Positions 36,689-63,064 of a stretch of DNA of 64,000 nt are shown here, piece after piece (the stretch's first letter is position 1; every line of letters begins with the position of its first letter). Both the position numbers and the translations under genes were made by a program. The stretch lies in NCBI RefSeq assembly GCF_007197885.1, contig NZ_VKKG01000006.1, positions 124,001 through 188,000 of the forward strand, written 5' to 3'. Origin of the DNA: Tessaracoccus rhinocerotis (GTDB taxonomy: Bacteria > Actinomycetota > Actinomycetes > Propionibacteriales > Propionibacteriaceae). Below the pieces are notes generated by a model. That model saw nothing but the letters and a program-made list of their open reading frames with translations, had not been told where the DNA came from and did no database searches.

Positions 36689-36693
36689 CTGGA

Positions 36694-46875: not shown

Positions 46876-49800
46876 ATGACAATTCCAACCCGCCGACGCG
46901 CCTGGGCGGCGCCCGCACTGGCGGTGGCCATGGTGGCCGCGTTCGCGGCGCCGTCGTTACCGGCAGCCGCGGCAGACCCGGTGCCGTTCCACTCCGACGG
47001 CAACCCGATCATCGCCGACGGCTCGTACTACACCGCCGACGCGGCCCCGCTGGTGGCCGACGGCAAGCTGTACATCTACGCCGGTCATGACGAGGCGGAC
47101 CCGCAGCAGGGCACCTTCAACATGCACGACTACAGCGTCCTCGAGACCGCCGACGTGGCCTCGGGTGACTGGGTGCACCACCCGCAGAACCTCGTCCCCG
47201 GCGACGTCTTCGCCTGGGCCACCGGCGACGGCGCCTACGCCGGCCACACCGTCCAGGGCGACGACGGCCGCTTCTACTGGTACGCCCCGGTCCAGACGGT
47301 CGACGCGTCGCAGCCCAATCGCATGGCCATCGGCGTCGCGGTCTCCGACACCCCTGTGGGCCCCTGGACCGACGCCCTGGGTGAGCCGCTGCTGGACTGG
47401 GCCGACGTGTTCGGCACCTCCACCAACGGCCAGGAGATCATCGACCCGCACGTCTTTCGGGACGACGACGGCACCTGGTACCTCTACTGGGGCTCCTGGT
47501 ACGTCGCCCGCGCCGTCGAACTGGCGCCCAGCATGACCGAGCTCGTCGGCGAGATCCACACCCTCGACGGCCTCGACAGCTTCTTCGAGGCGCCGTGGGT
47601 GTTCAAGCGCGGCGACCTCTACTACCTGGCCTACGACTGGAAGGACGCCGGAAGCGACTGCACGCCGTCGAACTACCAGGCCTGTATCGCCTACGCCACC
47701 GCTGACAACCCGCTCGGCCCGTGGGACTACCAGGGCATCATCCTGGGCGGCACCTCGTCGACGACGGTGCACCCCTCGATCATCGAGTTCGACGGCTCCT
47801 GGTACGTGACCTACCACACCAAGGACGCCGACGGCGGCGGCCACTTCCGCCGCTCCGTCGCCATCGACGAGGTGTTCTGGGACGGCGAGACCATCCTCCC
47901 GGTCACCCAGACCTGGGCCGATGACCCGGCGCTGGAGCTGACCGAGAACGTCGCCCTCGAAGCCACCCCCGTCGCCTCCTTCACCGAGACCCCGCCGATG
48001 CGCATCGGCGCCCTCAACGACGGCCGCCAGCTCACCGCGCTGCTGCCGCCGGACCAGTGGGGCAACTACCGCGGCACGGACAACACCCGCGAGTCGGACT
48101 GGGTGGCCTACACATGGGAGGCACCCGTCCGGGTCGACGGCGCCGGCATCCAGTTCCACCGCGACAGCAACTGGATCCAACCGCCCGCCAGCTGGGCGCT
48201 GGAGTACCTCGACGCCGACGGCGCCTGGCAGCCGGTTGAGGCCGACACCTACCCGACGGCCGTGAACACCTGGAACGAGGTCAACTTCACCCCCGTCACC
48301 ACCACCGCCCTGCGCGCCACGTTCAACGGCGCCCCCGAGGGCCCCTACTTCCACTCGGTCTCCGTCTCCGAGCTGGAGGTCTACGGGGTGGCGGCCGACG
48401 CCGTCGCGCCGGTCGAGGTGACCACCCGCCCGGGCGTCGCTCCCGAGCTGCCCGAGGCCGTCCGCCTGGACTTCGGCGACGCCGGCGCCACCTGGGCGCC
48501 CGTGACCTGGTTCCCGGTCGACGAGGCCGACTACGCCACCGAGGGCAGCTTCACCGTCCAGGGCCGAGCGCTCGGACACGCCGTCGAGTACGTCACGGCC
48601 ACCGTCGTCGTCGACGACGAGGCCGGGCCCACGCCGTCGAGCGACGAGCAGGCCCCCGTGGTGGGGATCGCGCTGCTGGGCGACGAGGGTGCCGAGGGCT
48701 GGTTCTCCTCCGAGGTCACCGCCCGCGTCACGGCCGACGACGCCGTCGACTACCGCACCGACATCGAGGTCCGCCTGGACGAGGGGGCCTGGGAGGCCAA
48801 CGCCGACGCCCGCTTCGTCGAGGTGGTGCTCGACGCCTCCGGCACCATCAGCGCCCGCGCCACGGACGCCGCCGGGAACACCTCCGAAGAGGTGACGCGC
48901 GAGGTCCTCATCGACACCGACGCCCCCGAGGTCACGGCCGTCGTGGACCCCGAGACCCGGGCCACCACCGTCACCGCCACCGATGCGCTCTCCGGCCTGG
49001 CGTCGCTGCGCTACAGCCTCGACGGCGGCGAGTGGAGCGACGTCGCATCCGGCGACGAGATCCCGGCACCCGACGCACTCCCGCACGAGCTCGCCTACCG
49101 GGCCACCGACGTCGCAGGGAACGTGACCGCCGGCAGCGTCTCCATCCCGATCGCGGACGCCTCGCAGCTGAGCGGCAACATCGCGCCCTACGCCGCGGCG
49201 ACCGCCACCTACACGGCGCCGTGGAACACCGTCGACGGCGTCAACGACGGCACCGCCGCACCGCTGGAGGACGCCCCCGGCAAGCTCGGCGTCCCGTGGG
49301 GCACCTGGCCCGAGGTGGGCGAGCAGGTTGCCACCCTCGAGTGGGGCTACGAGGTCACCGTCGATGGTTCCGCCATCTGGTGGTTCCAGGACTCCGACGA
49401 CGCCGCCAACGCCGGCATGATCGCCCCGGCAAGCTGGGTGCTGCAGTACCTCGGCGAGGACTCCGAGTGGCACGACGTCGTCCTCACCGACGACGCCACC
49501 TACGACCGGGCCCGCGACCAGTGGAACCCCGTCACGTTCGAGCCCGTCACCACCACCTCGCTGCGTGCCGTCATGCAGAGCTGGGGCGAGGAGGAGGGCG
49601 GCGGCTCCGCCGGCATCACCGAGTGGCAGGTCTTCGCCGCAGACACCGACCCGGGCGAGGAGCCGTCCGAGGAGCCGAGCGAGGAGCCGAGCGAGGAGCC
49701 GAGCGAGGAACCGTCCGAGGAGCCTTCCCAGGAGCCGAGCCAGGAGCCCAGTGAGGAGCCCACGGCTCCCGCGCAGGTGGACGTGTACTCGGTGCCCGGG

Positions 49801-50190
49801 TTCCACAACGTGAACGGCCGCTGGTGGTTCACCGAGTGCGAGGCCTACTCCCAGACGGCCCGCTGCGAGACCCAGATCTGGGCCAGCACCGTGGGCGAGC
49901 GGAACGGCGAGTTCGTCCAGACCAACGGCTGGACGTTCAACAACCTCACCTACCTGCCCTGGATGACCCGCGCGCAGTGGGGCGAGAACCCACTTGCCAA
50001 CGCCGGGGAGTTCACCAGCGACGGCCGCCAGTGGCGCACCGAGTGCGACACCGCCCTGACGGGGACCAACGGTTGCCGCACCTGGGTGATGGCCGACTAC
50101 GTCGCCGGCACGCGTGCCGCCGACGGCACCTGGACCTACGGCTGGACCAAGGACTGGGTGTTCAACAACATGGTGCGCTTCGGCAACTGA
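46876..50190 (+). CDS. Secreted multidomain glycoside hydrolase family 43 enzyme
   Basis: About 1104 residues with a signal peptide ending PAAAADP. The GH43 five-blade propeller (about 35-350) shows the catalytic base in YYTADAAPLV, the second Asp in IIDPHVFRDDDG and the acid Glu in SFFEAPWVF; such enzymes cut arabinose or xylose side chains or backbones of plant polysaccharides. Then come a discoidin-like module (about 355-510), an Ig-like Big_4 domain (VEVTTRPGVAPELPEAV), a further Ig-like region, a second discoidin-like module (from about 765), a linker of eight SEEP/SQEP repeats, and the four-Cys C-terminal module (from about 969). ATG 46876 lies 9 nt after GAGGGAG; the GTG at 46867 is too close. 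Confidence 0.92.
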   Translation: MTIPTRRRAWAAPALAVAMVAAFAAPSLPAAAADPVPFHSDGNPIIADGSYYTADAAPLVADGKLYIYAGHDEADPQQGTFNMHDYSVLETADVASGDWVHHPQNLVPGDVFAWATGDGAYAGHTVQGDDGRFYWYAPVQTVDASQPNRMAIGVAVSDTPVGPWTDALGEPLLDWADVFGTSTNGQEIIDPHVFRDDDGTWYLYWGSWYVARAVELAPSMTELVGEIHTLDGLDSFFEAPWVFKRGDLYYLAYDWKDAGSDCTPSNYQACIAYATADNPLGPWDYQGIILGGTSSTTVHPSIIEFDGSWYVTYHTKDADGGGHFRRSVAIDEVFWDGETILPVTQTWADDPALELTENVALEATPVASFTETPPMRIGALNDGRQLTALLPPDQWGNYRGTDNTRESDWVAYTWEAPVRVDGAGIQFHRDSNWIQPPASWALEYLDADGAWQPVEADTYPTAVNTWNEVNFTPVTTTALRATFNGAPEGPYFHSVSVSELEVYGVAADAVAPVEVTTRPGVAPELPEAVRLDFGDAGATWAPVTWFPVDEADYATEGSFTVQGRALGHAVEYVTATVVVDDEAGPTPSSDEQAPVVGIALLGDEGAEGWFSSEVTARVTADDAVDYRTDIEVRLDEGAWEANADARFVEVVLDASGTISARATDAAGNTSEEVTREVLIDTDAPEVTAVVDPETRATTVTATDALSGLASLRYSLDGGEWSDVASGDEIPAPDALPHELAYRATDVAGNVTAGSVSIPIADASQLSGNIAPYAAATATYTAPWNTVDGVNDGTAAPLEDAPGKLGVPWGTWPEVGEQVATLEWGYEVTVDGSAIWWFQDSDDAANAGMIAPASWVLQYLGEDSEWHDVVLTDDATYDRARDQWNPVTFEPVTTTSLRAVMQSWGEEEGGGSAGITEWQVFAADTDPGEEPSEEPSEEPSEEPSEEPSEEPSQEPSQEPSEEPTAPAQVDVYSVPGFHNVNGRWWFTECEAYSQTARCETQIWASTVGERNGEFVQTNGWTFNNLTYLPWMTRAQWGENPLANAGEFTSDGRQWRTECDTALTGTNGCRTWVMADYVAGTRAADGTWTYGWTKDWVFNNMVRFGN
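49780..50187 (+). other. Shared four-Cys C-terminal module, copy 1 (in GH43)
   Basis: Starts DVYSVPGFHNVNGRWW and ends KDWVFNNMVRFGN. Two halves each contain GRxW, two cysteines and (V/T)FNN; the linker YLPWMTRAQWGENPL joins them. It is homologous to segments at 56016-56423 and 62651-63061 in two CAP proteins. Confidence 0.85.
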
Positions 50191-50194
50191 CCCC

Positions 50195-50270
50195 GGTGAC
50201 AGATGTGAACGACACGCCGTGGACAGGTCCTTCAGGGCCTGACTGCGGCGTGTCGCTCACGCTGGTCACC
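50195..50270. terminator. Bidirectional hairpin element between GH43 and LacI genes
   Basis: A 76-bp imperfect palindrome: GGTGAC, 10 bp, GACACGCCG at the left and GGCGTGTCG, 6 bp, CTGGTCACC at the right. It separates two convergent genes and has the same arms and spacing as the element at 58023-58099. Confidence 0.75.
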
Positions 50271-50286
50271 AGCGCGGCCGGGGGCG

Positions 50287-51309
50287 TCAGCTCTCGCGGA
50301 TGGTGGAGCCGCGGATGACCAGCCGCACGGGCAGGTGGTGGGTGCCGGGGTTGGTGAGTTCGTCGTCGCCCATGGCCTGGAACAGGCAGCGGGCCGCCTC
50401 GCGTCCGAGTTGCTGCAGGTTGGCGTCGACGCTGGTGAGTTCGGGCCGGGAGTTGGTGGCGAGGATCTCCCAGTTGTCGTAGCCGATGACGGCGACGTCG
50501 TCGGGCACCTTGCGGCCGAGGCCGCGCAGGGTGTCCAGCACTCCGCGGGCGATCTGGTCGGAGCCGGCGACGATGCCGTCGATCTCGGGGTGGCGCTCCA
50601 GCAACACGTGGGTGGCGTCGCGGCCCCAGCGCTCGGACCACTGGGAGAACATCGTCTTGCCCTGCAGTTCCAGCCCGTGCTCCTCGAGTGCCTGCCGGAT
50701 CCCGAGCGTGCGGTCCTGGGCGGCGGCGTAGGTGGGATCTCCGCTGATGTGGGCGATGCGCGTGCGGCCGCAGCTGATGAGGTGTTCGGCCGCCAACTTG
50801 CCGCCGGCGACGTTGTCCGGGGTGAGGGAGATGTCCGAGGGGTCGTCGGAGGGGCCGTAGGCGTAGACGACGGGGACGGGCAGGTTGCCGATGGAGGGGC
50901 GCTGGTCCGTGGAGGCGCCGACGACGATGATGCCGTCCACGCGCCGGTTGAGGAGGGCCTTGAGGTGGTACTGCTCGCGAATGGCGTCGCCGCGGGCGTC
51001 GCACAGGAACACGCTGACCTTGCCGGCACCGAACGCATCCTCCGCGCCCATCACGATGGGCAGCACGAAGCGGCCCTCCAAGTCGCTGGTGAGCACCCCG
51101 ACCGTGCCGGTGCTGCCGTTCAGGAGGGAGCGGGCCACCTCGTTGGGTGTGAACCCGATGTTCTCGGCCGCCTCGAGGACGCGGGCGCGCGTGGCCTCGG
51201 CCACGTCGTCGCGTCCGTTTATGGCCTTGGACGCCGTCGCGATCGACACCCCGGCGAGCTCGGCCACCTGGCTGAGCGTCGGGGCGCTGCTGCGCTTGTT
51301 CTTGTTCAC
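50287..51309 (-). CDS. LacI-family transcriptional regulator, copy 1
   Basis: A 340-residue LacI/GalR repressor. The HTH (PTLSQVAELAGVSIATASKAI) is followed by the hinge FTPNEVARSLLNG and a sugar-binding domain (LTSDLEGRFVLPIVMGAEDA; VDGIIVVG; DVAVIGYDNWEILATNSRPELTSVD). It is a close paralogue of the next gene, sharing long blocks in the effector domain. GTG 51309 has GGGGAG 5 nt upstream; an ATG at 51327 is an alternative. It converges with the GH43 gene and probably regulates it or the sugar uptake operon. Confidence 0.88.
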   Translation of the reverse strand: MNKNKRSSAPTLSQVAELAGVSIATASKAINGRDDVAEATRARVLEAAENIGFTPNEVARSLLNGSTGTVGVLTSDLEGRFVLPIVMGAEDAFGAGKVSVFLCDARGDAIREQYHLKALLNRRVDGIIVVGASTDQRPSIGNLPVPVVYAYGPSDDPSDISLTPDNVAGGKLAAEHLISCGRTRIAHISGDPTYAAAQDRTLGIRQALEEHGLELQGKTMFSQWSERWGRDATHVLLERHPEIDGIVAGSDQIARGVLDTLRGLGRKVPDDVAVIGYDNWEILATNSRPELTSVDANLQQLGREAARCLFQAMGDDELTNPGTHHLPVRLVIRGSTIRES

Positions 51310-51359
51310 TTCACTCCCCACGTGCATCTTCCCGAGTATCAAAGCACACGGGGGAGCGG

Positions 51360-52379
51360 TCAGCGCTGGGGAATGGTGGAGCCGCGGATCACCAGGCTGA
51401 CGGGGAGCTGGTGGACACCCGGTTCAAGCTTGCGCTCGCCCATGGCGGTGAGCAGGTAGCGGGCCGCGGTCTTGCCGAGGTTCTCGAGGTTGAAGTCGAC
51501 GGTGGTGAGCTCGGGGCGTGCGTTGGTGGCCAGCACCTGCCAGTTGTCGAAGCTGATGACGGCGACGTCGTCGGGGACGGTGCGGCCGGCGTCGCGCAGG
51601 GTGTCGATGACGCCGCGGGCGATCTGGTCCGAGCCGCAGATGACTGCGTCGACGTCCGGGTGCTGCTGCAGCAGGACGGCGGTGGCGTTGCGGCCCCAGC
51701 GTTCGGTCCACTCGGAGTACATCGACGGCCCGACGAGGCCGAGGCCCGCCTCGGACAGGGCGTCCTCGATCCCCACCACGCGGTCCCTGGCGGCGGCGTA
51801 GGAGCGGTCGCCGGTGATGTGGGCGATGCGGGAGCGGCCGCACGCCAGCAGGTGTTCGACGACGATGCGGCCGCCGGCCTCGTTGTCAGGGGTGAGCGAG
51901 GTGTCGGCGGGGTTCACCGACGGGGCGTAGGCGTAGACCACGGGGATGGGAAAGTCGCGCCCGATCGAGGGGCGGGGGTCCGTCTGGCGGCCGACCACGA
52001 TGATGCCGTCCACCCGTCGGCTCAGCAGCGCCTTGAGGTGGTGCTGCTCGCGGATGGCGTCGCCGCGGGCGTCACACAGGAAGACGCTGACCTTGCCGGC
52101 GCCGAACGCGTCCTCGGCGCCCATCAGGATGGGCAGCACGAAGCGGCCCTCCAGGTCGCTGGTGAGGATGCCGACGGTGCTGGTGCGGTTGGTCAGGAGC
52201 CCGCGGGCCATGGGGTTGGGGGTGAAGTTGAGCTCCTCCGCCACCTCGAGGATGCGACGGCGGGTGCGTTCGGCCACATCGGCCCGGCCGTTGATGGCCT
52301 TGGACGCCGTCGCCAGCGAGACGCCGGCCACGCGCGCGACCTCGCTGAGGGTGGTGGCACGGTCATTGCCTGCGGCCAT
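51360..52379 (-). CDS. LacI-family transcriptional regulator, copy 2
   Basis: A 339-residue repressor with HTH ATTLSEVARVAGVSLATASK, hinge FTPNPMARGLLTN and the same effector-domain blocks as copy 1 (DLEGRFVLPILMGAEDAFGA). AAAGGAG lies 7 nt before the ATG. Only 50 bp separate its stop from the start of copy 1, so both may be on one mRNA. Its own promoter (-10 TAGAGT, minus 52444-52449) has the palindrome CTCGAAAGGGTTTTCGAG just upstream, which suggests autoregulation. Confidence 0.9.
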   Translation of the reverse strand: MAAGNDRATTLSEVARVAGVSLATASKAINGRADVAERTRRRILEVAEELNFTPNPMARGLLTNRTSTVGILTSDLEGRFVLPILMGAEDAFGAGKVSVFLCDARGDAIREQHHLKALLSRRVDGIIVVGRQTDPRPSIGRDFPIPVVYAYAPSVNPADTSLTPDNEAGGRIVVEHLLACGRSRIAHITGDRSYAAARDRVVGIEDALSEAGLGLVGPSMYSEWTERWGRNATAVLLQQHPDVDAVICGSDQIARGVIDTLRDAGRTVPDDVAVISFDNWQVLATNARPELTTVDFNLENLGKTAARYLLTAMGERKLEPGVHQLPVSLVIRGSTIPQR

Positions 52380-52455
52380 CGCAACTCCTTTCGATCCCCG
52401 AAACTTTTCAGCTCGCGCCGTCCGGAGCGGCGTCGCCACCAGCACTCTAGCGGAT

Positions 52456-52473
52456 CTCGAAAGGGTTTTCGAG
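52456..52473. promoter_or_regulatory. LacI-type operator upstream of LacI copy 2
   Basis: CTCGAAAGGGTTTTCGAG is an inverted repeat (CTCGAAA, 4 bp, TTTCGAG). It lies 6 bp upstream of the -10 TAGAGT, within the promoter spacer. A weaker CGAAACTTTTC is at 52399-52409. Confidence 0.65.
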
Positions 52474-52495
52474 TCATTTCGTCTGTTGGCGGAAA

Positions 52496-53383
52496 TCAGG
52501 CCTCGTCGATCCGGGAGCCGACGGGCGGGGCGGCCACCGCGGCGGCCCACGCGTCGGCGTCCTGTCCGAGGGTGGTGCGGAGGAACGCCGTCGAGGTGAG
52601 CCGGACCGCCTCCACGCGCTGGGGGCTCTCGTCGGTGGTGTCGGTGCGGTTGTAGCCGTGGATGCCGCCGAGGTAGTGCTCTCCGCCCAGCACCGTGACC
52701 AAGGCCCGGGACCCGGGGCTGAGGCGGTGGGCGTCGGTGAACCAGTCGGGACCACGGGTGGACAGTGGCGAGTCGTCGCTCTCGCCGGCGACCACCAATG
52801 TGGGGGTGGTGAGCTGTCCGAAGTCGGGGCTCATGAAAGGGAAGTGCTCGCGCGCGAAGGGCGCCAGGTCCTCGCCGCCGGTCCCGGTGGTTGCAAGTAG
52901 CACGCCGGCTCGCACGCGGGGATCCGTGTGGCTTGCCCCGACCGTCCGGTCGTCAGCGATCACCCGCGCGCCCAGCAGCATGCCGACAGTTTGGCCGCCC
53001 CAGGAGTGGCCGACGACGGCGAGGTTGCGCACATCGACCCGCTCGGGAAGTCCGGGGATGGCGGCCAGGAGTCGGTCGAGCGAGTCGATCACCTGCGTCA
53101 CGTCGCGCACCCGGAAGCGCCAGATCTCGCCGTGGCGCGGGTCGTCTGGGGTGATGGCCAGGGTGGCGGAGTCGAGGAACGTGGGCTGGACGACGACGAA
53201 GCCGGCTGCGGCCCAGTGGTCGACGAGGGGGTCGTAGGAGGTCATCGACCCGCCGAAGCCGTGGGCCATGAGGATCACGGGCAGGCCGGAGCCGGTGGCG
53301 GGTGCGGTGACGCGGACCTCGAGGTCGGTGCCGCGCTCGGGTGCGGGGAGGCGGACGGGCTTGACGGAGATGGTCTGGGGCAT
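52496..53383 (-). CDS. Alpha/beta hydrolase (chlorophyllase/PAF-acetylhydrolase-like)
   Basis: A 295-residue alpha/beta hydrolase. HGFGG forms the oxyanion region, the nucleophile elbow is VVGHSWGGQTVG, an acidic candidate is in VVAGESDDSPLS and the His is in LGGEHYLGGIHGY. It lacks an export signal, so it acts in the cytoplasm on small esters; the substrate is unknown. GAGAGGAAAC precedes the ATG at 53383 (a longer frame to 53416 runs into the operator). It is divergently transcribed from a TetR regulator, with three operator palindromes between, and is the likely target of that regulator. Confidence 0.87.
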   Translation of the reverse strand: MPQTISVKPVRLPAPERGTDLEVRVTAPATGSGLPVILMAHGFGGSMTSYDPLVDHWAAAGFVVVQPTFLDSATLAITPDDPRHGEIWRFRVRDVTQVIDSLDRLLAAIPGLPERVDVRNLAVVGHSWGGQTVGMLLGARVIADDRTVGASHTDPRVRAGVLLATTGTGGEDLAPFAREHFPFMSPDFGQLTTPTLVVAGESDDSPLSTRGPDWFTDAHRLSPGSRALVTVLGGEHYLGGIHGYNRTDTTDESPQRVEAVRLTSTAFLRTTLGQDADAWAAAVAAPPVGSRIDEA

Positions 53384-53401
53384 GATGTTTCCTCTCGAAA
53401 C

Positions 53402-53468
53402 GGAACGGAGTTCCACTCACGATACGGAACGCCGTTCCGGTTGACAAGTGGAATCGGAACGATGGTCC
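53402..53468. promoter_or_regulatory. Three TetR-type operators between hydrolase and regulator genes
   Basis: GGAACGGAGTTCC (53402-53414), GGAACGCCGTTCC (53426-53438) and GGAACGATGGTCC (53456-53468) share GGAAC-N3-GTTCC, the last with one mismatch. They lie in the 106-bp divergent gap and flank TTGACA at 53441-53446. The third lies in the -35 region of the TetR gene. Confidence 0.85.
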
Positions 53469-53489
53469 GTTTCGGGTAGGGTCAACTGC

Positions 53490-54089: not shown

Positions 54090-54109
54090 AGTTTGTCGTC
54101 GGTTGACTC

Positions 54110-54183: not shown

Positions 54184-54189
54184 CCGAAG

Positions 54190-54222
54190 AACCCGCACCC
54201 GCCCCGGCCGGTGCGGGTTTCG
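54190..54222 (+). terminator. Terminator after tRNA-Ile
   Basis: AACCCGCAC (54190-54198) pairs with GTGCGGGTT (54211-54219) and is followed by TTCG. It begins 6 nt after the tRNA. Confidence 0.75.
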
Positions 54223-54641: not shown

Positions 54642-55027
54642 AGAGGCTCATGATCGGCGACGTGGCACGCGCGGCGGGCGTCTCAGTGGACACCGTGCGC
54701 TACTACGAACGCGAGTCCCTGATCCCGCCGGCGGAGCGGGATTCCGGCGGACGCAGGATCTACGACGAGTCGGTGCTGGACGCGTTCGTGCTCATCAACG
54801 CGCTGCGCGGGGCCGGGTTCGGCATCAGTGAGGTGCGGCGGCTTACCTCGCTCAAGCAGACCCCCGACGTCGGGGAGCGCCTGCGCGGCGTCCTGGCGAA
54901 CTGCGACGAACTGGAAGCCGGACTGGACGTCGCCGAGCAGCGCATCGTGGCCGCCCGCGCCGTCGTGACCCAACTGCGCTCGGAGGCGACGGCCGGCCTG
55001 GCCGACGCCGTCGCCGGATGTGACTGA
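54638..55027 (+). CDS. MerR-family transcriptional regulator
   Basis: A 129-residue regulator. The winged HTH is MIGDVARAAGVSVDTVRYYERESLIPP, with SGGRRIYDESVLDAFVLINALRGAGFG, followed by a dimerisation helix. The only cysteine pair is C in LANCDEL and the C-terminal AGCD, which might sense metal or redox state but does not match the MerR mercury or SoxR pattern. The GTG start overlaps the preceding membrane-protein stop. Confidence 0.87.
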   Translation: MKRLMIGDVARAAGVSVDTVRYYERESLIPPAERDSGGRRIYDESVLDAFVLINALRGAGFGISEVRRLTSLKQTPDVGERLRGVLANCDELEAGLDVAEQRIVAARAVVTQLRSEATAGLADAVAGCD

Positions 55028-55070
55028 GCCCGGATCACACCGTCGGCCGGAATCCGTGCTTTCATCTTCC

Positions 55071-56426
55071 ATGGGGGAAAAACTTGGGGGAATTGCGCGC
55101 ACGCTCCTGGTGAGTCTTGCGCTCGTGCTGGGCTCGTCGGTGCTGGTGCCGATCGACGCCCACGCGGCACCCACCGTCGACGCCACGAAGGCCGACGCGG
55201 TGCGGGCCGCCTACCGTGAATACACGAAACTGGCGCAGACACCTGTGGGATGGACCGGCTCGGTGGCGAGCTGTACCACCGGGACCGTGTCGGCCGCCTA
55301 CCAGTCCGCGATCCTGCGGCGCGTGAACCTGGTGCGCGGACTGGCGGGTCTGGAACCGGTCCAGTTCTCGACGTCGTACAGCGCCTCCGCGCAGGCCGCG
55401 GCCCTGATCATGGCCGCCAACGACAGGCTGGACCACTATCCACAGGCTGAAGCGCGCTGCTACTCGGAGGAAGGTGCGACTGCCGCCGGCAAGTCGAACC
55501 TCGCCATCAGCTGGGGCCTCGAGGCGCTGGACGTGGTGCCGGACCCGATCTGGCTCTACATGGACGACTACGGCTACAACAACACCGCCGTCGGGCACCG
55601 CTGGTGGATCCTGCGTCCGGAGACCACCACCATGGGCTCCGGCAGCACCAACAACACCAACGCGTTGTGGGTCATCGACGAGTCGCCGCGCGCCACGGCA
55701 CCGCAGCTCACCACGTGGCCGGTTGCGGGCTACTTCCCGAGCGAGTGGGTGCCCACCAGCAGGCGCTGGTCCATCCACGCCACTGGCAGCGCCCGGCTCA
55801 GCGCGGCCACCGTGAAGGTGACGGGTCCGACGGGGGAGTTGGCGACGCGGGTGATCTACGGCGCCGCCGACCGGCTCGTGTGGGAGATGCCGGACCTGCC
55901 GGAGGTGGAGGGGCAGGGCTCGGTTCGCTACTCCGTCACCGTCAGCGGCATCACGGGCGAGGGCGCGCCGTCGACGCACGCGTACAGCGTCGACGTCATC
56001 GACGGCAGCTGGGTGGACGTGTACACCACGCCCGGCGAGCACCGCGTCAACGGCCGCGACTGGCGCACCACCTGCGAGCCCTACTCCAGCACGCAGCGCT
56101 GCCGCACCGAGATCCTGGCCACGCAGATCGCGCTGGTGAACGGCCGCTACGTGCAGCAGACCGGGTGGGTGTTCAACAACCTCACCTACCTGCCCAGCCC
56201 GCGCTCCATCTGGAAGGACAACCCGCTGGGCGGCTACGCGCAGGCGGGCTACGACAAGCAGTGGACCAGCGACGGACGCGCCTGGCGCACCGAGTGCGAC
56301 ACCGCGACGTCGGGCCGCAACGGCTGCCGCGCCTACATCCGCGCCACCGTGATCGAGGTGAACCCGGCCGGCGGCTACCGCAGCGTCACCAAGTGGCTGT
56401 TCAACAACATCGTGCGCTTCGGCTGA
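55071..56426 (+). CDS. Secreted CAP-domain (SCP-like) protein with four-Cys C-terminal module
   Basis: A 451-residue exported protein with a signal peptide ending DAHAAPTV. A diverged CAP domain (about 70-215) shows ILRRVNLVRGLAGLEPVQF, ANDRLDHYP with the family His, GHRWWILRPE and MGSGS. An Ig-like middle region (about 235-310) follows, and the C-terminal module begins DVYTTPGEHRVNGRDWRT at 56016. CAP proteins have varied extracellular roles and no activity can be assigned here. It shares the C-terminal module with the GH43 enzyme and the second CAP protein (62138-63064). ATG 55071 is picked as the signal peptide start; no strong Shine-Dalgarno is visible. Confidence 0.85.
   Translation: MGEKLGGIARTLLVSLALVLGSSVLVPIDAHAAPTVDATKADAVRAAYREYTKLAQTPVGWTGSVASCTTGTVSAAYQSAILRRVNLVRGLAGLEPVQFSTSYSASAQAAALIMAANDRLDHYPQAEARCYSEEGATAAGKSNLAISWGLEALDVVPDPIWLYMDDYGYNNTAVGHRWWILRPETTTMGSGSTNNTNALWVIDESPRATAPQLTTWPVAGYFPSEWVPTSRRWSIHATGSARLSAATVKVTGPTGELATRVIYGAADRLVWEMPDLPEVEGQGSVRYSVTVSGITGEGAPSTHAYSVDVIDGSWVDVYTTPGEHRVNGRDWRTTCEPYSSTQRCRTEILATQIALVNGRYVQQTGWVFNNLTYLPSPRSIWKDNPLGGYAQAGYDKQWTSDGRAWRTECDTATSGRNGCRAYIRATVIEVNPAGGYRSVTKWLFNNIVRFG
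56016..56423 (+). other. Shared four-Cys C-terminal module, copy 2
   Basis: Begins DVYTTPGEHRVNGRDWRTTC and ends TKWLFNNIVRFG. The two halves carry Cys pairs (TTCEPYSSTQRC and TECDTATSGRNGC) and end in VFNNLTYLPSPR and LFNNIVRF. Confidence 0.88.
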
Positions 56427-56441
56427 GCCTGTTCACGCTCA

Positions 56442-56482
56442 CTGCGGCACGGATGCCATCCGGGGTGGCGTCCGTGCCGCAG
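56442..56482. terminator. Terminator between the CAP protein and the GNAT gene
   Basis: CTGCGGCACGGATGCC (56442-56457) pairs with GGCGTCCGTGCCGCAG (56467-56482) with one wobble; the loop is 9 nt. It lies between convergent genes. Confidence 0.8.
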
Positions 56483-56538
56483 TTAGCGGTTACAGCCGGG
56501 GGCGACGGCGCACTCGGGCTGAGGCAGGCCCAGGGAGA

Positions 56539-56572
56539 CCCTTCGAGGCTCGCTGGCGCTCGCACCTCAGGG
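56539..56572 (-). repeat. 34-bp dispersed repeat, minus orientation
   Basis: CCCTTCGAGGCTCGCTGGCG through CGCACCTCAGGG is the reverse complement of the elements at 28336-28369 and 63847-63880, with one or two differences. Confidence 0.8.
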
Positions 56573-56585
56573 CGACTGGCGGATG

Positions 56586-57353
56586 TCAGGCCGGAGGCAG
56601 CGGGTAGTGCACCTCGTTGCCGTACACCTCGAACCCGGCGCGGCGCAGGATGGGGCTTGAGGTGCCCTTGCGGGCCTTCACCAGCGCGTAGCGGGCACCG
56701 CGCTCGAAGGCCTCGGTGAAGCGGGCGGCCATCACGGCCCGGTAGGCGCCGCGGTGCCGGTACTGCTCCACCACGCCACCGGCCCAGAGCTTGGCGACGC
56801 CGTCGTCGAGCGTGAGTCCGGCGTGGGCCGCGGGGACGCCATCGACGAGGCCGAGGTAGCGGAAGATGGTGCGATCCTTCCCTGCGGCCACCTGACGGGC
56901 GACGTCGGCGACGTCCCCCTCGCGGAACGCGGCGTTCGCGAGGGGCGTGCCGAACGCGGCGGCGGTGACGGGGTAGATCAGGTCCAGCACCTCGGGCCCG
57001 TCCGCCCGGCGCACCTCGACGTCGTCGGGAACGGCCAGGTCTGGGACGCCGTCGGTGAGGTCGAGCGCCAGGACGTCGAAGTCCTCCTTCACGCTTGCGC
57101 CCAGCCTGAGGAGGGTCTCTGCCAGGTCCGCGGGTACTGACAGGTCGTGGACCGCCCACAGCGTCGGCACCGACGGCGTGAGCCCGCGCACGTGCGCCAC
57201 CAGTTCCGGCCCCGGCAGGCCCTCGGCGCGGTGGACAGAGCCCTTGCCGTCCTTGACCACCACCTTGGCGTGCTCGGTCTCGTGGACCTCGGCGTCGTAG
57301 GGGATCCACAGCCAGGCGGCTGCGGTGTTGAGGACGTCTTCGCGGGTGGGCAC
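56586..57353 (-). CDS. GNAT-family acetyltransferase
   Basis: A 255-residue protein. The N-terminal half (about 1-110) has no clear motif; the C-terminal half is a GNAT domain with AKLWAGGVVEQYRHRGAYRAVMAARFTEA (the acetyl-CoA V-x-x-x-R-x-x-G-x pattern) and LVKARKGTSSPILRRAGFEVYG. It probably acetylates a small molecule or amino group; the substrate is unknown. TAGAGT (minus 57360-57365) is 6 nt before the GTG, so the mRNA may be leaderless. Confidence 0.8.
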   Translation of the reverse strand: MPTREDVLNTAAAWLWIPYDAEVHETEHAKVVVKDGKGSVHRAEGLPGPELVAHVRGLTPSVPTLWAVHDLSVPADLAETLLRLGASVKEDFDVLALDLTDGVPDLAVPDDVEVRRADGPEVLDLIYPVTAAAFGTPLANAAFREGDVADVARQVAAGKDRTIFRYLGLVDGVPAAHAGLTLDDGVAKLWAGGVVEQYRHRGAYRAVMAARFTEAFERGARYALVKARKGTSSPILRRAGFEVYGNEVHYPLPPA

Positions 57354-57434
57354 GGGGGAACTCTAGGGCGCAGGACAAGCGCGACGCCAAGCGTGCGGTT
57401 GCGGTCCGGAGCGGGGATCTGGTTCGCTCACCCG

Positions 57435-57965
57435 ATGACCATCCGACTCACCCCTCCCACCGTCGCGCTGTTCCCCAGCTGGGCCGAGGCCGTGGCGGAG
57501 TTCGCAGGCGTCCACATCGACGGTTCGGGGCTGAGGGCGCCGGTGGCGGGGGAGCCGTCGGTGCTGGACCTGCTCGTGGAGAAGGCCCGCACCATGGCCG
57601 ACACCTCCGTCGCGCCGCCCGAGGGGCTGGTCCACAACGACCTGTTCTGGATCACCGACGCCGACGAGGTGGTGGGGTTCGTCTCCATCCGGCACGAACT
57701 GAACGACTGGCTGCGGCGCTTCGGCGGCCACATCGGGTACTCGGTCCGCCCCTCACGGCGACGGCGCGGTTACGCCCGTGCGGGCCTGGCGCTCGCACTG
57801 GATCGCTGCCGCGAGTTGGGGCTGGAGCGTGTCCTGGTGACCTGCGACGACGACAACGTCGCCTCCTACCGCACCATCGAGGGAGCCGGCGGGGTGCTGG
57901 AGGACGTGGTCGACGGCGAGGAGCCGGGGGAGACGCCCAAGCGGCGCTACTGGATCGAGCTGTAG
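57435..57965 (+). CDS. GNAT-family acetyltransferase
   Basis: A 176-residue acetyltransferase with HNDLFWITDADEVVGFVSIR, the acetyl-CoA loop VRPSRRRRGYARAGLALALDRC, and VTCDDDNVASYRTIEGAGGVLED. The DDDNxxSxxxIEGxGGxLE pattern is that of YobR-like GNATs. It is divergent from the other GNAT gene; the 81-bp gap between them must hold both promoters. The substrate cannot be assigned. Confidence 0.85.
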   Translation: MTIRLTPPTVALFPSWAEAVAEFAGVHIDGSGLRAPVAGEPSVLDLLVEKARTMADTSVAPPEGLVHNDLFWITDADEVVGFVSIRHELNDWLRRFGGHIGYSVRPSRRRRGYARAGLALALDRCRELGLERVLVTCDDDNVASYRTIEGAGGVLEDVVDGEEPGETPKRRYWIEL

Positions 57966-58022
57966 CCAAAGTCCCGGCTGGGCCCAGGGACCGGGTCGCG
58001 CCCAGGGGTGCCCAGAGGCAGT

Positions 58023-58099
58023 GGTGACCAGAGCCGGTGACACGCCGAGGGATTGGCCTCCAGAGCAGACCCCGTGGCGTGTCGGCGGAGCTGGTCACC
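58023..58099. terminator. Bidirectional hairpin element between GNAT and membrane-protein genes
   Basis: A 77-bp palindrome with GGTGAC, 10 bp, GACACGCCG at the left and GGCGTGTCG, 6 bp, CTGGTCACC at the right. The arms are the same as in the element at 50195-50270, while the centre differs. Confidence 0.75.
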
Positions 58100-58156
58100 A
58101 AGGGCTTCCGGTCTCCTTCACTTCCCACCCCGGAACTGGCGAACCGCGTCCCTGTC

Positions 58157-58846
58157 CTATTCCGCCGCCTTGGCGAAGACGACGGCGCCCGCCGTCATCA
58201 CGGCGAACCCCAGGGCGGCCACCACGGCCCACAGGAGCGTCCTGCCGGGCTCGACGGGGGAGTGGAACAGCACGAACCCCTGCCAGAGTCCGAGGCCGAG
58301 CACCACCAGGAACAGCACGCCGGAGAGCAACCCCAGCACCATCCTCCCGCTCGCGAAACAGAACATGGGAGTCATCGACCAGGCCATCGTGCCCAGCAGG
58401 AACAGCGCCACCTGGACGACTGCAATGGGCTCGGAGTGCAGTTGCGTGACCAGGCTCCCATAGGGCCCGTCGATCACGAAGGGCCACAGCATCACGCCGG
58501 CGAGCTGGATGACTGCGGAGACGGGCACGCCCAGGGCGAGCAAGCTCGGCAGCCCGTCGGTGCGCAGCCCGCCGCCGGGGCGCTGGAGGTCCACCTGCAG
58601 GAACCCCCAGATCCCCGCCATCAGGCCACCGACGATGCCGGCCCACACGGCGGTGGGCTCGATGACGTCCCCGTTGGGTTGGCGCAGGAGTCCGGTGGCG
58701 GAGATGAACACCGCGCCGGTCCAGAACACTGCTCCCAGCACGGACTTGAGGAGCATGCTGCGGAGGTCCTCCCCCCAACTCCGGGTGCGTCGCTGCTTGC
58801 GACGGCGGGCGGTTCGGGGGTCTGTTCCGGTTCCACTCATACTCAT
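58157..58846 (-). CDS. Integral membrane protein of unknown function
   Basis: A 229-residue protein. A basic N terminus (RTARRRKQRRTR) is followed by about six hydrophobic segments (near 33-52, 66-84, 98-122, 143-160, 168-188 and 206-225). I see no catalytic motif and do not recognise the family. The start ATG has no strong ribosome site. It is divergent from the sugar-binding lipoprotein gene, with 137 bp between. Confidence 0.75.
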   Translation of the reverse strand: MSMSGTGTDPRTARRRKQRRTRSWGEDLRSMLLKSVLGAVFWTGAVFISATGLLRQPNGDVIEPTAVWAGIVGGLMAGIWGFLQVDLQRPGGGLRTDGLPSLLALGVPVSAVIQLAGVMLWPFVIDGPYGSLVTQLHSEPIAVVQVALFLLGTMAWSMTPMFCFASGRMVLGLLSGVLFLVVLGLGLWQGFVLFHSPVEPGRTLLWAVVAALGFAVMTAGAVVFAKAAE

Positions 58847-58983
58847 CGATTGTGCCGGGCAACCCGGTCACTACGACGGGGCATCGCCGTGCACCACCTC
58901 CCCGCCCTCGGCGAACAAGTGGATCTCCCACGGCGCCACTCTGGCACGATGGACCCACCGGTTCTGTACCCAGGAGGATCCCG

Positions 58984-60351
58984 ATGAAGTCTCGACCAAC
59001 CAGCTCGCTGCGCGCACTCGGCGGCGCACTGCTAGTCAGTGCCCTGGCCCTCACGGCCTGCGCGCCGGGCAGCGGCACCCCGTCGGAGGAACCCACCAGC
59101 GGGGAGACCATCACCGACGTCACCACCGATATCGAATCGCTCGGCGACGTCGAACTCGTGGTCTGGGACCAGGAGGTCCGCGGCTCCCAGAACGACGCCC
59201 TCGAGGCGCTGAACGCCGCGTTCGAGGACAAGTACCCCAACGTCACCATCAACCGCACCAGCCAGGCCAACGAGGACCTGCAGCAGCAGATCGCGCTCGC
59301 GCTCGGCGGCGACGACGTCCCCGACGTGGTGCAGGTCAACAACGCCCGCGGTGACATGGGCCAGTACGTCGCGGCCGGCCAGCTCGCGGACCTCACCCCC
59401 TACGCCGACGCCTACGGCTGGACCGACCGGTTCCCGGACTCCGTGCTCGGGAAGGTGCGCTACTCCGCCGACGGCACCACCTTCGGCGAGGGCAACCTCT
59501 ACGGCCTGCCGCAGACCGGCGAGATCGTCGGCATCTTCTACTCCCAGTCCAAGCTGGACGAGCTGGGCCTCGAGGCGCCGACGACGTGGGACGAGTACCA
59601 CGCCGCCCTGGACGCCGCGCTGGAGGCCGGTGAGCTGCCGATGGTACTGGGCAACATCGACCAGTGGCCCGCCCTGCACGTCTTCGGCCCGCTGCAGGCC
59701 AACCACGTCCCCGCCGACGACATCGTCGCCCTCGGTATGGGCAACGCCGGCGCGTCCTGGCTGGACGAGGGCAACGTCGCCGCCATGGAGCAGTTCGCCA
59801 CCTGGGGCGCCGAGGGCTACTTCGGCTCCTCCCCGAACGGCACCGACTACGACGCCGCCTGGGCCGACTTCACCACAGGAACCGGCGTCTTCCTGCCCGC
59901 CGGCAACTGGCTGGGTGCCGACATGGAGGCCGTGATGGGCGAGGACCTGCGCTTCATGGCACCGCCGCCGGGACTCGACGGCCAGGTGGCCACCACCGGC
60001 GGCACCGGCATCCCGTTCTCCGTCCCCGCCAACGCGGACAACGTCGCCGTCGCCGCCGCCTACATCGACTTCATCACCACGGAGGAGGCGATGGAGATCA
60101 TCGCCGAGAACGGTGGCATGCCGGTGTTGAACACGGCCGACCTCGCTCCCGAGAGCGGCGTCCAGAACGACATCTACACCGCCTTCAGCACGGTCTCCGA
60201 GGAGGGCACGCTGCTGCCATACCTGGACTACGCCACCCCGACCTTCGCCGACACCGCCGGCCAGGGCCTGCAGGAGGCGCTCGACGGGCAGCGCACGCCC
60301 GAAGAGGTGCTGCAGGCGTTCGAGGATGACTACGCCGCCTTCACGGGCTGA
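58984..60351 (+). CDS. Sugar ABC transporter substrate-binding lipoprotein
   Basis: A 455-residue type 1 (MalE/UgpB-like) binding protein. The signal peptide ends in the lipobox LTAC, so it is lipid-anchored outside the membrane. Features are VELVVWDQEVRGSQNDALEAL, the middle LYGLPQTGEIVGIFYSQSKL, and WADFTTGTGVFLPAGNWLG. It delivers an oligosaccharide or sugar to the two permeases downstream. AGGAGG lies 6 nt before the ATG. The permease gene starts 26 bases before its stop. The GH43 enzyme nearby could supply its sugar; that link is inference. Confidence 0.92.
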   Translation: MKSRPTSSLRALGGALLVSALALTACAPGSGTPSEEPTSGETITDVTTDIESLGDVELVVWDQEVRGSQNDALEALNAAFEDKYPNVTINRTSQANEDLQQQIALALGGDDVPDVVQVNNARGDMGQYVAAGQLADLTPYADAYGWTDRFPDSVLGKVRYSADGTTFGEGNLYGLPQTGEIVGIFYSQSKLDELGLEAPTTWDEYHAALDAALEAGELPMVLGNIDQWPALHVFGPLQANHVPADDIVALGMGNAGASWLDEGNVAAMEQFATWGAEGYFGSSPNGTDYDAAWADFTTGTGVFLPAGNWLGADMEAVMGEDLRFMAPPPGLDGQVATTGGTGIPFSVPANADNVAVAAAYIDFITTEEAMEIIAENGGMPVLNTADLAPESGVQNDIYTAFSTVSEEGTLLPYLDYATPTFADTAGQGLQEALDGQRTPEEVLQAFEDDYAAFTG

Positions 60352-61255
60352 GGTCCGGGCGCCCCGGCGCTGGGGGCGGCCGTCGGCCGTCGCCGGCTCC
60401 CGGGCCGCGCCCTACCTCTACCTGCTGCCGGCCCTGGTGGTCTACGGCGCCTTCATGCTGTACCCGCTGGGTCGGACCATCAGCTACTCGTTCTACGAGT
60501 GGTCCGGCTTCGGCGCGGCCACGTTCGTCGGCCTCGACAACTACACCTCGCTGCTGGGCGACCGCGCCTTCCTGGCCGCCATCTGGCACGCCCTGGTGCT
60601 GATCGTGTTCTACTCCCTGCTGCCGCTGGCGGTGGGTCTGGTGCTGGCGGCGGTGCTGCGCCGCGGGCAGGTGCGCGGACTGGGCATCTACCGGGCGCTG
60701 ATCTTCCTGCCGCAGGTGATCGCCCTGGTGGTGGTGGCCGTCGCGTGGCGCCAGATCTACGCCCCGACCGGCGGTCTGAACAGCCTCCTCGGCCTGTTCG
60801 GCATCGACTCCGACATCGGCTGGCTCGGCAGCGCGGACTTCGCGCTGTCCGCCGTCGGCGTCATCGGTTTCTGGCTGGAGACCGGCCTGGTCATGCTCCT
60901 GCTGCTGGCCGGCATGACGCGCATCCCCGGCGAGCTCTACGAGGCGGCCCGGCTCGACGGCGCGGGCCCCGTCCGTGAGTTCTTCGCCGTCACCCTGCCG
61001 AGTGTCCGCGGCGAGATCGCGACGGCGCTGGTGCTGACCATCATCGCCGCCCTGAAGACCTTCGACCTCGTCTACATGACCACCCGAGGCGGCCCCGGGA
61101 CCGCGACGACGGTGCCCGCCTTCGAGGTGTTCAACCGTGCGTTCAACCACAAGCAGATCGGCTCGGCCGCGGCCGTGGCGGTGGTGCTGACCGTGCTGGT
61201 GTTCATCATCAATGTGTTCGTCAGCCGCGTCGGTGAGGAACGGAGGCCGCGATGA
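60326..61255 (+). CDS. Sugar ABC transporter permease (MalF/UgpA type)
   Basis: A 309-residue permease with six membrane helices. It starts PYLYLLPALVVYGAFMLYPLG and carries the EAA loop YEAARLDGAGPVREFFAVTLP that docks on the ATPase. It forms the channel with the next gene. Its ATG overlaps the binding-protein gene by 26 bases and its stop overlaps the second permease start (ATGA). Confidence 0.92.
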   Translation: MTTPPSRAEVRAPRRWGRPSAVAGSRAAPYLYLLPALVVYGAFMLYPLGRTISYSFYEWSGFGAATFVGLDNYTSLLGDRAFLAAIWHALVLIVFYSLLPLAVGLVLAAVLRRGQVRGLGIYRALIFLPQVIALVVVAVAWRQIYAPTGGLNSLLGLFGIDSDIGWLGSADFALSAVGVIGFWLETGLVMLLLLAGMTRIPGELYEAARLDGAGPVREFFAVTLPSVRGEIATALVLTIIAALKTFDLVYMTTRGGPGTATTVPAFEVFNRAFNHKQIGSAAAVAVVLTVLVFIINVFVSRVGEERRPR

Positions 61256-62061
61256 GGGTCTCCAGCACCGAGCGGATGCTCAACTACGTCGTCCTGACCC
61301 TGTTCGCGCTGTTCGCGGTCGCCCCGGTGGCCACGATCTTCGTGACCGCGCTGGGGCCGCAGCTCGGCATCGCCACCGGCGGGCTGCACTGGGGCAACTT
61401 CGCCGAAGCCTGGGCGCAGGGCGACTTCGGCCGTGCGCTCGGCCGGTCCCTCGCCGTCGCCGCGCTCGTGGTCACGTCGGCGCTGGCGCTGTCCGTGCTC
61501 GCCGGCTACGCGTTCGGCACCATGCGCTTCCCCGGTTCGACGCTGCTGTTCTACCTGTTCCTCCTGGGATTGATGATCCCGGCCGAGGCCATCGTCATCC
61601 CGCTGTTCTTCGACTTCCAGGCCATCGGGCTCACCGACACCATCTGGGGTGTGGCGCTGCCGCAGATCGCGCAGTCGACGGCGTTCGGCGCGTTCTGGAT
61701 GCGCGCACAGTTCCGGGCGCTGCCCGAGAACCTGCTCGAGGCCGCCGCCATCGACGGCAGCACCAGCTGGAGCGCCCTGTGGCGGATCTGCGTGCCGCCG
61801 CTGCTGCCCTCGATCGTCACCGTCGCGGTGTTGATGTTCATGTGGACGTGGAACGAGTTCCTGATCCCGCTGGTGATGTCGCCCTACAAGACGTGGGCGA
61901 CGGCGCCCCTCGCGCTGAACGTGTTCCAGGGCCAGTACACCGCCGACACCGCACTGATGGCCTCGGCCGGTGTCATCATCGCCGCGCCCATCGTCGTCGC
62001 GTTCGTCTTCGGCCAGCGCTACTTCATCAACGGCATGCTCGAGGGCGCCACGCGCGGCTGA
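61252..62061 (+). CDS. Sugar ABC transporter permease (MalG/UgpE type)
   Basis: A 269-residue permease with six helices, starting MLNYVVLTLFALFAVAP; the EAA loop is LLEAAAIDGSTSWSALWRI. It pairs with the preceding permease. No ATP-binding subunit follows, as is usual for actinobacterial systems that share one MsiK-type ATPase encoded elsewhere. A weak hairpin GTGACCCC-CGTC-GGGGTTAC (62083-62102 region) lies between it and the next gene. Confidence 0.92.
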   Translation: MRVSSTERMLNYVVLTLFALFAVAPVATIFVTALGPQLGIATGGLHWGNFAEAWAQGDFGRALGRSLAVAALVVTSALALSVLAGYAFGTMRFPGSTLLFYLFLLGLMIPAEAIVIPLFFDFQAIGLTDTIWGVALPQIAQSTAFGAFWMRAQFRALPENLLEAAAIDGSTSWSALWRICVPPLLPSIVTVAVLMFMWTWNEFLIPLVMSPYKTWATAPLALNVFQGQYTADTALMASAGVIIAAPIVVAFVFGQRYFINGMLEGATRG

Positions 62062-62137
62062 GACTCGGCGCAGGGTGACCCCCGTCGGGGTTACGCTGGC
62101 CCGCCCGGGGGAACTCTGACCGATTCGAGGAGCCCCG

Positions 62138-63064
62138 ATGAACAAGACCCGGAATGCCTGGTTCACCCGCCTGGCAGCGCTGCTGGTGCTGTTGGGGACG
62201 GCCTTCGTCGTGCCACAGGGCGCGCAGGCCGCCACGAACGTCAACGAGACCGCGAAGGTCCAGCAGTTGCTTGCCGGCCTCAACTCCTACCGCGCCCAGA
62301 AGGGCGCCCCGGCCGTCACGCTCAGCACCGCGCTGACCCCCGTCGCACGCGACTGGACGGTGCGGATGGCCGACACCGGCAACTTCAACCACAACCCGCA
62401 CTACCACGACGACTCCCGCGTGCCTGACGGCTGGAGCGGGGCGGGCGAGATCATCGCCCTGAACTCGTCGGGCAGCGCCCAGCAGTTCATCAACCAGTGG
62501 ATCAACTCGCCCCCTCACGAGAAGATCATGCGCGACGCGAAGTACACCCACGTCGGCATCGGCATCGCCAGGGCCTCCAACGGCCTCTGGTACTCCACCA
62601 TCAACTTCTTCGCCTACTCCGGCAACCCGGACGGGAACACGCCTGACGTCGATGTCTACACCACGCCGGGCGAGCACTACGTCAACGGTCGCCACTGGCG
62701 CACCGTGTGCTCGAACTACAGCTCCACAGTGAAGCGCTGCCAGGCCGACATCCACGCAACACAGATCAAGCTGGTGAACGGGCGCTACCAGCAGGTCAAC
62801 GCCTACGTGTTCAACAACCTGACCTACCTGCCCTCGCCCCGGGCGCAGTGGAAGGGCAACCCGCTCGCGGTCGACGGCACCTGGCGCGCTGACGACGGGC
62901 GGCAGTGGAAGACCAGCTGCGGCGACTCCTGGACCGGACCCAACGGGTGCCGCAGCTTCTCGCGGGTCACCTTCTACGAGGGCTACCTCGACGGCAACGG
63001 CCAGCGCCAGTTCCGCCAGAAGACCGACTGGGTGTTCAACAACGTCGTCCGCTTCACTTCCTGA
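62138..63064 (+). CDS. Secreted CAP-domain protein with four-Cys C-terminal module
   Basis: A 308-residue exported protein. The signal peptide ends QGAQAATNV. The CAP domain (about 40-165) is complete: LAGLNSYRAQKGAPAVTLS, WTVRMADTGNFNHNPHYHD with the two family His, SGAGEIIALNSSG, QFINQWINSPPHEKIMRDA and THVGIGIA. This resembles YkwD-like CAP proteins. The C-terminal module (from 62651, DVYTTPGEHYVNGRHW) is the closest relative of that in the CAP protein at 55071-56426. GAGGAG lies 6 nt before the ATG. The role is unknown; the domain order suggests a wall-targeted secreted protein. Confidence 0.9.
   Translation: MNKTRNAWFTRLAALLVLLGTAFVVPQGAQAATNVNETAKVQQLLAGLNSYRAQKGAPAVTLSTALTPVARDWTVRMADTGNFNHNPHYHDDSRVPDGWSGAGEIIALNSSGSAQQFINQWINSPPHEKIMRDAKYTHVGIGIARASNGLWYSTINFFAYSGNPDGNTPDVDVYTTPGEHYVNGRHWRTVCSNYSSTVKRCQADIHATQIKLVNGRYQQVNAYVFNNLTYLPSPRAQWKGNPLAVDGTWRADDGRQWKTSCGDSWTGPNGCRSFSRVTFYEGYLDGNGQRQFRQKTDWVFNNVVRFTS
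62651..63061 (+). other. Shared four-Cys C-terminal module, copy 3
   Basis: Begins DVYTTPGEHYVNGRHWRTVC and ends TDWVFNNVVRFTS. Cys pairs lie in TVCSNYSSTVKRC and TSCGDSWTGPNGC; VFNNLTYLPSPR joins the halves. Confidence 0.88.

Follow-up and report, generated by a model that had tools for sequence, protein, structure and literature searches.

Among the domains by which proteins of Gram-positive bacteria bind non-covalently to the cell wall, the available text of one review lists LysM, WXL, SPOR, CW-7, PGB1/2, CWB1, CWB2, SLH and several SH3 types, together with ChW, whose mechanism it gives as unknown, and it states that further SH3 types are still to be discovered (PMC5817068). For Cutibacterium acnes, LPXTG proteins and one class F sortase are described in the accessible part of a further review (PMC7913060), while a review of cell-wall hydrolases, as far as its text was available, names Tessaracoccus once, in a table, and mentions no module of the kind reported here (PMC6403190). 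Here we describe a four-cysteine module carried by secreted proteins of Tessaracoccus rhinocerotis, three copies of which lie in the stretch of 64,000 nucleotides that was analysed (contig NZ_VKKG01000006.1, positions 124,001 to 188,000; hereafter the window, its genome being G000). Judged from sequence, this module is probably a non-covalent anchoring domain for the cell wall or cell surface, with both the binding and the nature of the ligand being predictions.

A first-pass annotation of the window had proposed that three unrelated proteins share C-terminal copies of about 135 residues, with paired cysteines and the motifs NGRxW, FNNLTYLP, NPL and NGC in register. All three copies are in frame, each at the C-terminus of its open reading frame (ORF), and their coordinates, listed below, are unchanged from that annotation. 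Their alignment confirms both the copies and the register: it spans 144 columns, of which 54 are invariant, including four cysteines, NGR-x-W, FNNLTYLP, NPL and NGCR. Copies 2 and 3 are 53% and 48% identical to copy 1, respectively, and 60% identical to each other. The host proteins are indeed of two kinds, GH43 and CAP, but two of the three both belong to CAP according to Pfam, such that only the distinction between the kinds stands. Visual inspection and a simple rule agree that all three N-termini resemble signal peptides, as had been claimed.

46867..50190, + strand: secreted GH43 protein of 1107 residues, with an Ig-like domain, a Glu/Pro/Ser linker and the C-terminal module (Pfam GH43, 5.9e-27; Big_4, 6.1e-9)
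49645..49779, + strand: acidic EEPS-type linker preceding the module, 91% P/T/S/E/D/Q in 45 residues
49780..50187, + strand: module copy 1, of the GH43 protein (alignment and profile match)
55020..56426, + strand: secreted CAP protein with C-terminal module (ORF; Pfam CAP, 2.4e-8)
56016..56423, + strand: module copy 2, of this CAP protein (alignment and profile match)
62138..63064, + strand: secreted CAP protein with C-terminal module (ORF; Pfam CAP, 1.1e-16)
62651..63061, + strand: module copy 3, of this CAP protein, the copy modelled by AlphaFold2 (alignment, profile match, pLDDT 94.7)
62651..62869, + strand: internal repeat 1 of copy 3, with C20 and C30
62870..63061, + strand: internal repeat 2 of copy 3, with C90 and C100

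The module consists of two related halves with one cysteine pair each. When the halves of a 74-row alignment were compared by hhalign, they matched with a probability of 98.7 and an E-value of 3.3e-16; all four cysteines are invariant in these 74 rows, and four cysteines are present in 56 of the 57 ORFs of the window's genome that carry a full-length copy. AlphaFold2 predicted copy 3 to be an all-beta domain with long hairpins, confidently modelled and compact over its full length, without a terminal hydrophobic helix, and a Foldseek search with this model returned no match at E ≤ 1e-3 in the PDB or among viral models. In the full-module ORFs of the window's genome, the module has a median net charge of +3, versus −7.9 per 135 residues for the rest of the carriers, in which the acidic linkers are counted, and contains 14.2% aromatic residues, versus 7.6%, with a median of eight tryptophans per module. 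In Pfam, the 74 members matched only six isolated names, with one or two members each (E 0.019-0.069); SLH, SH3, WXL and dockerin were absent at E ≤ 0.1, as was every wall domain listed in the available text of PMC5817068. NCBIfam gave no match over the module region of the three window proteins, PADLOC and PDB sequences gave no match to the module, and in the literature searched, which mostly leaves out subscription journals, neither a description of the module among the titles and abstract openings listed nor the string FNNLTYL was found. The earlier statement that the module has no name is borne out to the extent that Pfam, NCBIfam, PADLOC and PDB sequences hold no convincing match.

Using one copy as a query, we found 65 matching places in the window's genome, with E-values from 1.3e-97 to 9.6e-8, and an iterated profile detected the module in 65 ORFs of the fetched stretches of this genome. 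Full-length copies are present in 57 of them, one of which bears two, resulting in 58 full modules. Neither a Pfam match to a well-described domain nor a restriction to the three window proteins, either of which would have spoken against the first-pass annotation, was seen. The stop codon is at most 10 residues away in 41 of the 58 modules; more than 90 residues follow in 16, and 68 in one, that of an M23 peptidase. A scan of a collection of 84,980 species yielded 143 confirmed relatives; in the related loci, which are the best 80 of these relatives (79 loci) from that one scan, 73 of 96 distinct full modules are C-terminal and 23 are followed by more than 90 residues. By eye, each of the 16 N-terminal modules in the window's genome comes after a signal peptide, or in one case after another module, with the remainder of the protein behind it; in the M23 protein the module comes after the catalytic domain.

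The carriers are diverse. Murein-enzyme domains were found by Pfam in seven of the 19 scanned ORFs with a non-C-terminal module, namely YkuD-type L,D-transpeptidase (two), M23, M15, M14 (for which murein as the substrate is an assumption), NlpC/P60 and RlpA-type DPBB. The same set comprises sorbosone dehydrogenase (two), C5-epimerase, LRR, fn3, beta-helix and carboxypeptidase-regulatory-like domains, and five of the 19 have no Pfam match at 1e-3. The 45 ORFs with a C-terminal module, four of them with partial modules, match 63 Pfam families, 25 of which provide the names given here: GH43 in five ORFs, CAP in three, GH20 and GH10 in two each, and further GH53, GH101, GH59, GH127, amylase, pullulanase-type domains, subtilase and metallophosphoesterases; nuclease domains also occur among the carriers. 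Ten C-terminal carriers viewed singly include LTD/Exo_endo_phos, 5'-nucleotidase, LTD/Metallophos, subtilase, GH30, GH53, GH10 and DUF4185 proteins, and two of the ten lack a Pfam match at 1e-5. Many of the C-terminal modules, but not all, are preceded by a linker rich in Pro, Ser, Thr and Glu. A home-made rule recognized a signal-peptide-like in-frame start in 46 of the 57 full-module ORFs (41 at the first start, five at a later one), a rule that also flags 144 of 881 long frames without a module, most of which are probably not genes. One GH20 carrier (L128, C1:20850-24509 in G000) has no in-frame signal peptide, but a signal-like start upstream in another frame, pointing to either a draft frameshift or a broken gene. 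No carrier matched a regular expression for LP.T[GA] within its last 60 residues or one for a lipobox, in agreement with what had been noted for the three window proteins. Classical LPxTG signals with a membrane tail occur as well, one having been seen in the window's genome (L116). The mobility that had been suggested is likewise apparent: full copies sit next to unrelated domains on 57 ORFs of one genome, and in five families other terminal elements take the module's place in other genomes.

LPxTG endings are known signals for wall attachment. Many proteins of the genus end in a tail-less version, in which a Pro-rich linker leads to PGLP-x-TG, one residue and the stop, without a hydrophobic and charged tail (loci L192, L193, L196-L208, L210-L222 and L225, with L212 from the window's genome); this version is similar to the minimal substrate of sortase reactions in vitro, and we infer that sortases use it in the cell as well. 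The pattern GLPxTG-x-stop matched 183 times in 33 of the 39 genus genomes, versus seven times for a backward-read control. Of 31 matches read in fetched loci, 28 have PGLPxTG plus one residue at their end, mostly behind a Pro-rich linker, and a membrane segment is obvious in the 30 codons past the stop of only one of the 31, L204, in which it resembles the signal peptide of a next gene. Together with a GH20 protein of G045, the 28 make up 29 LPxTG-ending ORFs, seven of which align with module carriers of the window's genome up to a point between 43 residues before and seven residues after the module start. These swaps represent four families, LTD/Exo_endo_phos (56.5% identity), 5'-nucleotidase (46-55%, in four genomes), LTD/Metallophos (68%) and GH20, and six of the seven come from module-negative genomes. 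In the GH20 case, the protein of the module-negative G045 is 53% identical to the 1220-residue carrier over residues 6-1074, the module starting at 1085, and then closes with a linker, LPQTG and one more residue; in G030, a more distant protein ends in LPKTG plus one residue, while a closer relative runs off its contig. Three further ORFs (L204, L215 and L216) match carriers partially and were not counted as swaps, and the other 19 show no such match. Since LPxTG is known for wall attachment and is found where the module otherwise stands, we regard these swaps as the strongest argument for a role of the module in keeping proteins at the surface.

A related replacement concerns an L,D-transpeptidase in which the module lies between signal peptide and catalytic domain, both in the window's genome and in the module-positive G035, G043 and G010; the G040 protein, whose module is split over two frames, was left out of this reading. 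The L,D-transpeptidases of the module-negative G017 and G022 bear two other repeats in this place, and similarity starts only past the module. These repeats end in GxWxRN, slightly reminiscent of GWVFNN in the module, and resemble SH3_3 weakly. A role of such a tandem as the general anchor of module-negative genomes was discarded, as it is present in only two of 39 genomes, and we did not adopt a description of the module itself as a tandem SH3, given its long hairpins in the AlphaFold2 model and the lack of an SH3 chain among the structure-search matches listed. Presumably, the LPxTG-type endings and the weakly SH3-like repeats serve the same purpose as the module that they replace. The LPxTG-type endings in its place and the several murein enzymes among its carriers indirectly favor the envelope targeting suggested by the first-pass annotation, as far as sequences can tell.

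The carriers have no common substrate, as glycosidases, a subtilase, a nuclease, a 5'-nucleotidase and CAP proteins are all among them, which we count in favor of an anchor, as we do the export signals, the replacement by LPxTG and SH3-like elements, the many-or-none distribution across genomes described below and the basic, aromatic composition. After export, the two cysteines of each pair would form a disulfide, and the folded domain would bind either a wall polymer (peptidoglycan, or a wall glycopolymer specific to the lineage) or a different structure of the surface; anchoring of this kind would hold degradative enzymes close to the cell and murein enzymes close to what they act on. The main rival explanation, which we consider unlikely, is that the module acts like a dockerin and attaches secreted enzymes to a scaffold protein at the surface rather than to a wall polymer. 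Dockerins do look like this, being duplicated terminal modules found on dozens of glycosidases in a single genome, and the linkers and the patchy many-or-none distribution would fit as well; however, the Pfam search described above returned no dockerin, the module is predicted to be all-beta, unlike the EF-hand helices of dockerins, and murein enzymes and CAP proteins would be odd cargo for a cellulosome. It is still less probable that the module is a carbohydrate-binding domain directed at an external substrate, for example glycans of plants or hosts. While it is all-beta, rich in tryptophan (see the median above) and common on glycosidases, it is also carried by L,D-transpeptidases, NlpC/P60, M14, M15, M23, nuclease, nucleotidase, subtilase and LRR proteins, for which there is no common external substrate, and it is replaced by LPxTG endings in relatives; taken together, the murein-enzyme carriers and the swaps point to the wall rather than to a glycan outside the cell. 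We consider it very improbable that the module is a sorting signal like PEP-CTERM or the type IX CTD, to be recognized, cleaved and replaced by a covalent link. The proximity of most full modules to the C-terminus would suit such a signal, but this position is not obligatory, considering the modules in the window's genome (16 of 58) and in the related loci (23 of 96) with long extensions behind them, and the confidently predicted compact fold extends over the full length without the terminal hydrophobic helix.

Several observations weigh against a non-covalent wall or surface anchor. The swaps were found starting from the LPxTG side, where 22 of the 29 ORFs were not taken as swaps, and G032, one of the genomes with a swap, has the module too. 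Positive genomes also have tail-less LPxTG endings, with 39 pattern matches in 15 genomes versus 144 in 24 negative ones; the means of 2.6 and 6.0 do not differ significantly (Mann-Whitney p = 0.053), so that complementary numbers of the two elements are suggestive only. The SH3_3 likeness of the replacing repeats reaches an E-value of just 0.0023 and 18.5 bits, with a cut-off of 27. A pyruvylated ligand of the SLH type finds no support, as the family PF04230 is present in seven of 15 module-positive and seven of 24 module-negative genomes and does not track the module. Phage lysins might be expected to use such a domain, yet no module was found in 50,697 phage records, and two IMG/VR scans returned two and 91 stretches with a peptide-pattern match, none of which was confirmed as a module. 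Finally, an in-frame signal peptide is lacking in 11 of the 57 full-module ORFs. For six of them the same rule finds a signal-like start upstream in one of the frames, convincing by eye in four cases; a frameshifted draft sequence would look like this. Of the remaining five, one is truncated at a contig end.

With respect to taxonomy, the names among the relatives listed are Tessaracoccus, uncultured Arachnia, Propionibacterium sp. and Propionibacteriaceae bacterium only. The matches in G008, G012, G020 and G035 lie at the positions recorded for T. antarcticus, T. coleopterorum, T. massiliensis and Tessaracoccus sp. OS52, respectively. Within the family, the module was found in 15 of 198 genomes, every one of them from the window's genus and none from the other 28 genera. 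Positive genomes number 13 of 293 in the order, again from this genus only, and one of 396 in the phylum, the window's own; as these searches scored at most 21, 14 and 10 candidates per genome, respectively, diverged relatives could have escaped them. No module was found in 72,556 plasmids. With nearly full scoring in the genus, 15 of 39 genomes are positive and 24 have none; the positive genomes contain 66, 64, 59, 52, 48, 48, 43, 42, 38, 37, 29, 17, 16, 11 and 1 matches, partial ones included, that is, at least 11 copies in 14 of the 15 and a single one in the last. The module is real, unnamed in the libraries searched and of unusually wide reach in one genus, with none seen outside, and its distribution within this genus is patchy.

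On a YidC tree with 35 of the 39 genomes of the genus plus four from other families, which does not include the positive G020, module presence requires eight changes, at least four of them forced by well-supported branches. A supported clade of this tree (G018, G036, G034, G037) has 11, 1, 0 and 0 modules, as though its repertoire were decaying. When 154 modules are placed in one tree, copies from different genomes interleave, with 28 label changes for the window's genome versus 34.1 with shuffled labels, 18 versus 18.6 for T. antarcticus and 14 versus 14.3 for Tessaracoccus sp. OS52, which implies that paralogues in these three are largely older than the species. In the loci sampled, the modules of T. 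massiliensis form nearly one clade of 11 rows (L037, L053, L057, L059-L061, L063, L065, L097), with two changes versus 10.6, as if they had been homogenised together, and non-C-terminal modules cluster as well, with nine changes versus 35.0. This module tree rests on few columns, its bootstrap values are not settled and its related loci are the best matches of one scan. We take the pattern to mean that a large repertoire is old, that several lineages lost it largely as a unit and that it was homogenised in a single lineage. A wider interpretation, which we offer tentatively and consider rather doubtful, is that of a lineage-restricted anchoring system with a new fold, in which a large share of the surface proteome, with up to 66 modules per genome, would rely on one domain tuned to a wall ligand that only part of one genus has. 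Loss or change of this ligand would then cause the whole set to be lost or to shift in concert, as the near-single clade of T. massiliensis may illustrate, with some relatives of the carriers using tail-less LPxTG instead.

If the module is an anchor, dozens of proteins that sequence alone would suggest to be freely secreted would acquire an attachment site, and a candidate fold would be added to the short list of wall-binding modules. In that case, comparison of the 15 positive and 24 negative genomes for genes gained or lost with the module would offer a route to the ligand, and the module itself could serve as a tag for surface display.

The window also encodes one of the three sortase matches of its genome, and several genes flank the carriers:

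35963..36697, − strand: class F-like sortase (PF04203 above cut-off; NCBIfam class F sortase at 92 bits, not reaching the cut-off of 166)
44681..46582, + strand: ORF upstream of the GH43 gene, its second half very acidic and then Pro/Glu-repetitive
50287..51342 and 51360..52550, − strand: adjacent, mutually similar regulator-like ORFs (LacI-like by eye) beside the GH43 carrier gene
58852..62061, + strand: sugar ABC transporter by eye, with a binding protein and two permeases, immediately upstream of the CAP-module gene at 62138

Compared to known anchors, the module shares with dockerins the terminal, duplicated arrangement on dozens of glycosidases of one genome, but differs from them in its predicted all-beta fold and in having no match to their Pfam profile. 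Bacterial SH3 domains (SH3_3, SH3_5, SH3_8/GW) are likewise terminal wall-binding modules on murein enzymes, and weakly SH3-like repeats replace the module in two L,D-transpeptidases; however, no SH3 profile matched any of the 74 members, and no SH3 chain appeared among the structure matches listed, although the two may be remotely related. The LPXTG sorting signal occupies the module's place in relatives from four families, but it is short and covalent, and it is absent from the last 60 residues of the module carriers. SLH domains (PF00395) are alike in that units of about 55-60 residues recur at the termini of numerous secreted proteins encoded by the same genome, as is in part described in the available text of PMC5817068. 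The module differs from them in having two repeats instead of three, cysteine pairs, an all-beta prediction and no SLH profile match, and while SLH binds a pyruvylated wall polymer, the CsaB-type pyruvyl transferase family PF04230 does not vary together with the module. WXL domains are similar in being C-terminal, about 120-190 residues long and non-covalently wall-binding, yet the module has no WXL match, and the WXL motif contains no cysteine and is, according to the same available text, described mainly from Lactobacillales and Bacillales (PMC5817068). Overall, it is the non-covalent wall-binding modules that it resembles in standing at a terminus of several kinds of murein enzymes and of other secreted proteins, with a single exception among 58 copies, the M23 protein.

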